DNA of 22,844 nt, from assembly GCA_025454075.1 (NCBI GenBank), contig JALOPD010000026.1:1-22844 (forward strand). Reading direction: 5' to 3'. Below, piece by piece: positions 9,853 to 11,314 of the stretch. Each line of letters opens with the position of its first letter. The first letter of the stretch is position 1. Origin of the DNA: Desulfobacterales bacterium (GTDB lineage Bacteria; Desulfobacterota; Desulfobacteria; Desulfobacterales; UBA2174_A). Below the pieces are notes generated by a model. It saw only the letters and a list, made by a program, of their open reading frames with translations. It ran no database searches and was not told the DNA's origin. The translations under genes and the position numbers were made by a program.

Positions 9853-9899
9853 AATCAATAATCAAGATTTGACACTTATTCTTCCACTTATTCTTCCAC
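9853..9899. repeat. RAYT-associated motif copy 2 with 12-bp tandem duplication
   Basis: The stretch 9853-9875 (core ATAATCAAGATTTGACAC) matches the copy at 8358-8380 at 20 of 23 positions. It is followed by CACTTATTCTTC twice (9873-9884 and 9885-9896) and a CAC start of a third unit. On the minus strand the duplicated unit spells GTG GAA GAA TAA, the last codons of the MerB-like gene. The element therefore abuts the gene's 3' end and the RAYT remnant's 5' flank. Confidence 0.65.
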
Positions 9900-10580
9900 G
9901 CCAAGATCCCAGAAGGCTCCTTTCAGCCCGAGTCTGTCGAAGAGGTGTTGGATCTGGGCCGGTCCCGGCCGCTGCCAGTCGCGATCGAGGCGGCCGGCAT
10001 ACCATTTCTGCGCCAGTTCCCAGCACGTCTGGATCGGCATGAGGTGGCCTTCGGCCGCACCCCGCCGCTTCAGCCACCTGTCGAGATGATCCTTCGACCT
10101 GAAGGCGAGGATCGTCGCTCAGGTGAAGCCGATGTTTTCCCAGAACCGGACGGCCGGGACCATGAAGTGCACGATCCAATCCGAATCCACCGGCCGGCCA
10201 GGGCGGACCGGGAGCGCGAGCCGTTCGCGGCACTCTCCACACCCGCACGGGGTGTGCGCCACGGCATCCCTGCCGAGAATGGCGGCGATGCCGAGGACGT
10301 CCCAGACTCAGTTGCCCCAGTAGCGCTGGGTCCCGATCTCGGTCACGTAGTTCGTGGGCAGACCCGAGAACGGGTGGGCCATCCAGATCGAATGCGACCC
10401 CGGGGCGAGGGCGATGTGGTGGACGCCCGCCAGACGCTCATAGGCTCCCTCGACGTCGGCGACCGGGATGTCGAAGTGCTCGGCGCATTCGAGGGTGGTC
10501 GGCGGGCGGGAGGTTCTTGCAAACGTGCTGTAAACGTAGTGACGGACATCGGGATCGGAAGCTCTGTTGCTGGTCTCCAT
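9888..10580 (-). CDS. MerB-like organomercurial/organometal lyase with two selenocysteines (UGA91, UGA154)
   Basis: A 230-codon frame runs from ATG 10580 (ribosome site GGAGG just upstream) to TAA at 9888-9890, interrupted only by TGA at codons 91 (10308-10310) and 154 (10119-10121). The protein is a MerB relative: a winged-helix-like N-terminus, then RYWGN-U-VWDVLGIAAILGR, CGCGEC, and WENIGFT-U-ATILAFRS. Classical MerB uses Cys96, Asp99 and Cys159 to bind the metal and cleave the carbon-mercury bond. Here U91, D94 and U154 have exactly those spacings (3 and 63), and C112 matches Cys117. Both UGAs thus replace catalytic cysteines, and each has a SECIS-like hairpin downstream. Ordinary Cys codons (32, 112, 114, 117, 186) and TGA stops elsewhere argue against a changed code. 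Sec assignment is inference, though strong; the alternative is a double-nonsense pseudogene. Confidence 0.87.
10088..10113 (-). promoter_or_regulatory. SECIS-like hairpin after UGA codon 154
   Basis: Counting the U of UGA as 1, CCUUC (17-21) pairs with GAAGG (27-31) around the loop AGGUC (22-26). A lower stem GAU/AUC (9-11 with 32-34) is separated by a 5' bulge that contains a U. The loop sequence and its distance from UGA nearly equal the E. coli fdhF SECIS, whose loop AGGUCU starts at 21 and is bound by SelB. Seen by eye; folding not computed. Confidence 0.75.
10263..10292 (-). promoter_or_regulatory. SECIS-like hairpin after UGA codon 91
   Basis: Counting the U of UGA as 1, GGCAUC (19-24) pairs with GAUGCC (43-48), and GCCG (25-28) pairs with CGGC (36-39), closing a CCAUUCU loop, with an AGG bulge at 40-42. 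That is ten base pairs with the apical loop in the 16-37 nt window used for bacterial SECIS elements. If the top pair opens, the loop starts with G, but it lacks the GGU of the second hairpin. Confidence 0.55.
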
Positions 10581-10603
10581 TCGGCAACCTCCGTTCAGGG
10601 AGC

Positions 10604-11197
10604 TCAACGCGCTGTTCTCACCCCTTCAGCCTCAATTTTTTTCTCCGCCTCCGCGAGCGACGCATGGCCGCTTGCCCGCACCAGGTAGTCGTAGACCTTT
10701 TCCGACAGGCTCTCTCCGCGTGCCTGCATGGCCAGCAGGTCGCGGTGGAGAAGCGTCAGGGTGCGCTCGGAATAGGTTTCGAGCTCCCCGCGCGCGTAGG
10801 TCTCGAACGAGGTCATCTGCGTTTGCGTGCCCTCATCCGTCAGCGGGCGCGCGCCGCTCATGACGGCCGGGTAGTCCCGGAACATCGCCCGCTGCCAGTC
10901 CATCTTCAGCCGGACGATTTCGTCGACGAGCGGGTTGGTGTTTTCACTTCCGATGAGCCCCTGCATGCGGGCGTACTTGCGGCGCATGAGGTTGTCCCCG
11001 CGATCCTTCGCCTGGTGCAAGTCGTCCAGGTAGCTGCCGAGCGCCTCCTCCGACCAGGGGTGGAACTGGGCGCGCCGATGCAGCTTGAAGCTCTCCGGGT
11101 GTTCCTGGCAGCTGCTCGTCGGCTGGGGGTTTACGGTGAGGAACATCTGGAGCTCGATCTCCAGAATGGCGTCGATGATGCGGTCTTTTTCGCTCAT
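10604..11197 (-). CDS. DUF4125 family protein
   Basis: A 197-residue soluble protein that I recognise as DUF4125: an N-terminal IIDAILEIELQMFLTV helix, a RRAQFHPWSEE segment, YLDDLHQAKDRGDNLMRRKY, a central EIVRLKMDWQRAMF, and FETYARGELETYSERTL near the end. It is mostly helical, with no signal peptide or membrane segment. Its biochemical role is unknown. The start at 11197 gives the family N-terminus and has AGGG before it; the longer frame from 11254 adds unrelated residues. Its stop is 23 bp before the MerB-like start, so the two form a minus-strand operon. That suggests a part in handling an organometal or one-carbon compound, but this is context only. Confidence 0.8.
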   Translation of the reverse strand: MSEKDRIIDAILEIELQMFLTVNPQPTSSCQEHPESFKLHRRAQFHPWSEEALGSYLDDLHQAKDRGDNLMRRKYARMQGLIGSENTNPLVDEIVRLKMDWQRAMFRDYPAVMSGARPLTDEGTQTQMTSFETYARGELETYSERTLTLLHRDLLAMQARGESLSEKVYDYLVRASGHASLAEAEKKIEAEGVRTAR

Positions 11198-11216
11198 GTG
11201 GAGACCCTTGCATCCA

Positions 11217-11245
11217 TCTATGTGCTTGTACCGCCCCTGCGTCAA
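11217..11245 (-). promoter_or_regulatory. Possible promoter of the DUF4125-MerB operon
   Basis: On the minus strand, TTGACG (11245-11240) and CATAGA (11222-11217) are 17 bp apart, a fair sigma70-type pair. Just upstream, 11249-11271 contains an inverted CATGA/TCATG pair that could be an operator. The leader to ATG 11197 would be only about 12 nt, so this is a weak call. Confidence 0.3.
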
Positions 11246-11314
11246 CATGGTCATGAATCACTTATCATGCCCCGGCGCCGGCGGCAAATGAGCTGTTCCG
11301 GCCTCGGTCATAAA

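Follow-up and report, generated by a model that had tools for sequence, protein, structure and literature searches.

A MerB-family gene of a Desulfobacterales contig with UGA codons, probably read as selenocysteine, at both catalytic cysteine positions

The 22,844-nucleotide stretch of DNA analysed here, referred to as the window (contig JALOPD010000026.1 of assembly GCA_025454075.1, Desulfobacterales), contains on its minus strand, at positions 9888-10580, a gene of the MerB family in which both positions of the catalytic cysteines are occupied by UGA. The two codons are very likely read as selenocysteine (Sec), and the product is predicted to be a double-Sec organometal lyase. This reading, put forward in an original prediction made from the sequence alone, is supported by relatives carrying UGA or Cys at both columns, by covarying hairpins after both UGAs and by Sec machinery in the genomes of the relatives. 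Translation of the interval agrees exactly with the frame then described: 230 codons run from ATG to TAA, the only internal stops being in-frame TGAs at codons 91 (10308-10310) and 154 (10119-10121), and U91, D94, C112 and U154 are separated by the claimed spacings of 3, 21 and 63.

In MerB, two cysteines grip the mercury, and Asp99 protonates the carbon. The protein was aligned to the MerB chain 3fn8 by using phmmer, which places residue 91 on Cys96, D94 (10299-10301) on Asp99 and C112 on Cys117; residue 154 is placed on C160, the neighbour of C159, with a one-residue gap adjoining. Against MerB2 (5c17), residues 91 and 154 are each opposite a Cys. Of the counterparts originally claimed, those of Cys96 and Asp99 are matched, codon 154, assigned to the Cys159 position, is opposite the adjacent Cys in this alignment, and the partner of Cys117 is uncertain. 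In the family alignment the Cys117 column is occupied by C114, not C112; either of them, both located in the CGCGEC segment (cysteines 112, 114 and 117; 10230-10247), may be the counterpart, because the clade of the window has two extra residues there. The protein scores 80.9 bits against PF03243, the broad MerB family of Pfam (cut-off 27), and the MerB fold of this family is predicted across its core.

Codons at columns 91 and 154 in the relatives

Relatives were collected by a genome scan, using one genome per species, and the best 80 of 118 were analysed. Because column 154 lay outside the scan patterns, TGA was not selected there, and it was found at this column in all 80 loci. Column 91 is TGA in 10 loci and Cys in 70, a TGA share biased downward because one of the two scan patterns spans this column and cannot match TGA. 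Column 94 is Asp in every locus, and no TAA or TAG precedes the gene end in any of the 80 frames, the extra stop in L016 being the natural end of the gene. The pair of stops had been claimed to be more than coincidence, and these loci bear this out.

The combined family alignment includes 119 rows, from which L110, L112, L122 (a duplicate of L002) and L140 (cut at extraction, with two TGAs counted in it) were left out. Columns 91 and 154 are Cys/UGA in 73 rows, UGA/UGA in 35, Cys/Cys in 8, Ser/Cys in one and gapped in two; UGA/Cys was never observed. Homologues with Cys/UGA or UGA/UGA, for which a search had been proposed, were found, and the in-frame UGA stands where relatives carry Cys, as expected of a bacterial selenoprotein. 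Alignment columns 13-226 contain 144 TGAs, 143 of which fall at the two columns, the remaining one being the natural stop of L102. Chance was rejected on these counts, together with the invariant TGA at column 154. For L101-L141 the lack of TAA and TAG is by construction, because the frames were cut at these codons. Cys/UGA relatives are present in Acidobacteriota, Chloroflexota, Gemmatimonadota and other phyla.

A search of 297 Desulfobacterota genomes with the PF03243 profile, reading through stops, produced 41 matches in 34 genomes: 26 contain two TGAs, 3 contain one, 1 contains a TAA and 11 are free of stops, for a total of 29 read-through matches with TGA only versus a single one with TAA. 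A protein database search returned 22 homologues, 14 of which end one residue short of column 154 (13 with Cys at column 91, and P0015). Trp is reported at both columns in P0002, P0003 and P0004, and also in P0021 where its relatives have UGA; these four are apparently gene calls made under a code in which TGA means Trp. No relative was found in the viral contigs searched, and three plasmid records contain relatives, at less than 60% identity.

A quick tree, with long branches, was built after removal of the two trait columns. The window and L001-L010 form a UGA/UGA clade of 11 rows (SH-aLRT, an approximate likelihood ratio branch support, 100), nested in the Cys/UGA radiation. Two more UGA/UGA clades were recovered: one of 19 rows (within L111-L139), in which Glu replaces the catalytic Asp at column 94, and one of 5 rows, which has Asp there. 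Parsimony requires at least 3 changes at column 91 and at least 5 at column 154; the strongly supported branches are not enough by themselves to demand separate origins, and gain and loss are indistinguishable on this tree.

Hairpins downstream of the UGA codons, and selection

Folding was evaluated by a z-score, which compares the fold of the region with those obtained by synonymous-codon resampling and is about 0 at random sites. A candidate Sec insertion sequence (SECIS) hairpin of 5 pairs, with the loop AGGUC, is found after codon 154 (10091-10105). In the 11 rows of the window clade this stem is paired in 55 of 55 cells, versus 29-69% for slid versions, and two of its pairs show changes on both sides. 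The mean z over 45 bases is -1.13 in these rows, -1.13 in the 73 Cys/UGA rows and -2.11 in the 19 Glu rows.

After codon 91, RNAalifold predicts an 11-pair stem within 60 bases, which forms the outer stem of a second candidate SECIS hairpin (10258-10297). It is paired in 90.9% of cells versus 40-51% for slid versions; four pairs show changes on both sides, a number reached by 25 of 500 shuffles, while the covariation score is reached by 1 of 500. Over 54 bases, a length picked after the RNAalifold fold had been seen, the 11 UGA-91 rows average a z of -2.21 (10 of them lie below -1, and the window itself is at -1.85), versus -0.18 for the 73 Cys-91 rows (p 9e-6 for the difference) and only -0.50 for the Glu group (p 0.06). 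Codon choice in the latter group is nearly fixed at several positions, with TTC CGG TCG at +6 to +8 after codon 154 in 19 of 19 rows, and TCG (15/15) and CTG (19/19) after codon 91. A SECIS-like hairpin, predicted to bind SelB, is thus located just downstream of each UGA. SelB would there deliver Sec-tRNA, and the full protein of 230 residues would be produced.

The ratio of nonsynonymous to synonymous substitution rates (dN/dS) was calculated by simple counting, with dS capped, on 55 pairs of the window clade. The median rises from 0.11 ahead of codon 91 to 0.14 in the interval separating the UGAs and 0.15 downstream of codon 154; these values show purifying selection in all three parts, so that the region behind both UGAs is maintained as protein.

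Decoding machinery and alternative readings

SelA, SelB and tRNA-Sec were searched in the hosts of L001-L050, 50 of the 80 loci, and in 14 control genomes. SelA was above cut-off in 46 of 50 hosts versus 1 control, SelB in 45 versus 2, and tRNA-Sec in 42 versus 5; ARAGORN named a tRNA-SeC(tca) in 20 of the 20 loci examined. The ten window-clade hosts all have SelA and tRNA-Sec (borderline in G007, 47.3 bits), and nine have SelB (not G006). SelA is also present in the 20 Desulfobacterota sample genomes with a two-TGA MerB, and the PF03243 match is free of TGA in G119 and G142, the MerB-bearing genomes without SelA.

Several observations weigh against decoding of the two UGAs as Sec, or against the predicted lyase. 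The machinery data come from genomes of relatives, not from the host of the window itself, and by themselves discriminate little, because SelA is common in these phyla regardless (269 of 297 Desulfobacterota and 60 of 80 Acidobacteriota genomes) and the tRNA-Sec model passes in the 5 controls; SelA was dropped as a discriminating test for this reason. P0015 has Tyr at column 91. P0013 (contig of 20047 bases), the top N-terminal match with 86% identity over 31% of the query, lacks both UGA sites, which appear by eye to have been removed by a deletion with a frame shift into the C-terminal part. As to the hairpins, the mean z over 45 bases after codon 91 is weak (-0.83; +0.39 for the window itself), and after codon 154 a z of -0.68 is reached also by 6 Cys/Cys rows, while extension to 54 bases reduces the signal there to -0.71. 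The five-row UGA/UGA group gives no consistent signal at codon 91 (-1.04 at 45 bases, -0.08 at 54), and values of -0.40 and -0.28, respectively, at codon 154. To these are added the lack of mer genes and a second UGA-reading tRNA, considered below with the alternatives they favour.

A double-Sec protein may be produced without being a lyase, acting rather as a binder or holder of soft metals, or as a redox protein based on a Sec pair. This appears unlikely, though it keeps more weight than any other alternative. It is favoured by the genomic context: no mer gene was found among ten frames of the window scanned with Pfam, the 25 most widespread neighbour families of the relatives include no gene of the window, and MerA exceeds its cut-off in only 2 of the 29 hosts that carry double-UGA forms. 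The retention of both catalytic positions and of the Asp, the latter in all of the best 80 relatives, and the predicted MerB fold of the core argue for a lyase. HgcA, a mercury methylation protein, is above cut-off in 13 of the 29 hosts and in 3 of the 10 window-clade hosts; in the Desulfobacterota sample it is found in 11 of 20 genomes with a two-TGA MerB versus 72 of the 277 that lack it (p 0.009 by Fisher's test, relatedness being ignored). Confounded by relatedness as it is, this link is a lead.

The most serious rival on the identity of the inserted residue is cysteine: a selC*-type tRNA-Cys and a dedicated SelB* would read both UGAs, making of the protein an ordinary Cys/Cys relative of MerB. 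A system of this kind is described for Desulfobacterales (PMC7609411). G001, the host of the nearest relative L001, contains a second tRNA with a UCA anticodon and a T at the discriminator position (L142, 1307-1398), directly before a selB-like gene, an arrangement which resembles the selC*/selB* cysteine system, the tRNA matching the selC* tRNA-Cys of PMC7609411. Both systems read UGA, the difference being that this one would insert Cys, and it is clear in one of ten window-clade hosts: a second tRNA over cut-off is found only in G001 and, borderline (47.3 bits), in G010. Cysteine insertion is further opposed by SelA in all ten of these hosts, and by the spread of Cys/UGA relatives over several phyla, with SelA in nearly all of the hosts tested; it is considered improbable.

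The gene could also be a pseudogene, or be expressed only as the 90-residue piece ahead of the first UGA, as the two in-frame stops and the degraded aspect of P0013 might indicate; this was rejected, as highly improbable, on the low dN/dS between and after the UGAs, the recurrence of the same two UGA codons in 35 of 119 rows and the covarying hairpins. Global reassignment of UGA to Trp (code 4), as in the translations of P0002-P0004 with W at both columns, was rejected as practically excluded, since, of 16 other main frames of the window that were checked, 9 end in TGA as an ordinary stop, and the sense codons at the two columns across the 119 rows are Cys and one Ser, never Trp.

Other features surround the gene. 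A Shine-Dalgarno-like GGAGG (10588-10592, minus strand) is located 7 bases 5' of the ATG. Directly upstream, on the same strand and 23 bases away, a DUF4125 protein is encoded (10604-11254), which is absent from the most widespread neighbours of the relatives. A scan of the window with Rfam at gathering scores gave zero matches, and a tRNA search of the window found none.

Predicted activity and comparison with MerB and SaoL

On the preferred double-Sec reading, and by analogy with the mechanism of MerB, the soft metal of an organometal, mercury for example, would be held by the two selenolates. With protonation of the carbon by Asp94, the bond between carbon and metal would be cleaved, and the freed metal would be handed to cellular thiols or sulfide. 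With selenolates replacing both thiolates, tighter binding of soft metals would be expected. If Sec is inserted at both catalytic positions, the protein offers a natural test of how a double thiolate to selenolate swap affects the way in which a metal-carbon lyase binds and releases mercury or other soft metals. Genes of this kind are not rare, as they account for 26 of the 41 PF03243 matches in Desulfobacterota, and surveys of organometal degradation based on predicted proteins would miss or shorten them, because so many database homologues (14 of 22) end just before column 154. Because the double form recurs on the tree, it can be tested directly why two Sec residues are used. More tentatively, and with somewhat less than even confidence, the double form may represent a widespread, overlooked class which breaks carbon-metal bonds by a selenol pair, arisen about three times from Cys-bearing MerB-like ancestors and hidden by gene callers that cut at UGA; it would occur in anaerobes, including some mercury methylators, and its selenol pair would be the tightest-binding form of a MerB active site.

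The protein resembles MerB (NF009710; PDB 3fn8, 5c17 and others) in Pfam family, predicted fold and the positions of both Cys and of the Asp, and differs from it in that both Cys are UGA. It reaches 23.9 bits against NF009710, whose equivalog cut-off is 193 bits, and the Cys-Asp-Cys sites of that family read UGA, Asp, UGA, which would be functionally equivalent only if Sec or Cys is inserted. A search for a double-Sec MerB in literature listings and in passages of PMC13188914, PMC9312934, PMC12013277 and PMC2398784 found none; it did not cover two papers that probably introduced SaoL and related selenoproteins, Haft and Gwadz (2023) and Haft and Tolstoy (2025), and that could describe one.

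A second comparison is with SaoL, the MerB-like organometallic lyase of the SAO system (NF040728), in which likewise Sec replaces a Cys. The statement, in the original prediction, that Sec-containing relatives of MerB have been reported was correct, SaoL being listed with one Sec, in the motif CU, in a table of PMC13188914. The window protein is not among the NF040728 matches at E<=1, and ten relatives score 17-51 bits versus a cut-off of 140. Two loci that pass as SaoL, L103 and L107, combine Cys at column 91 with TGA at column 154, while the window protein, below the SaoL cut-off, has UGA at both.
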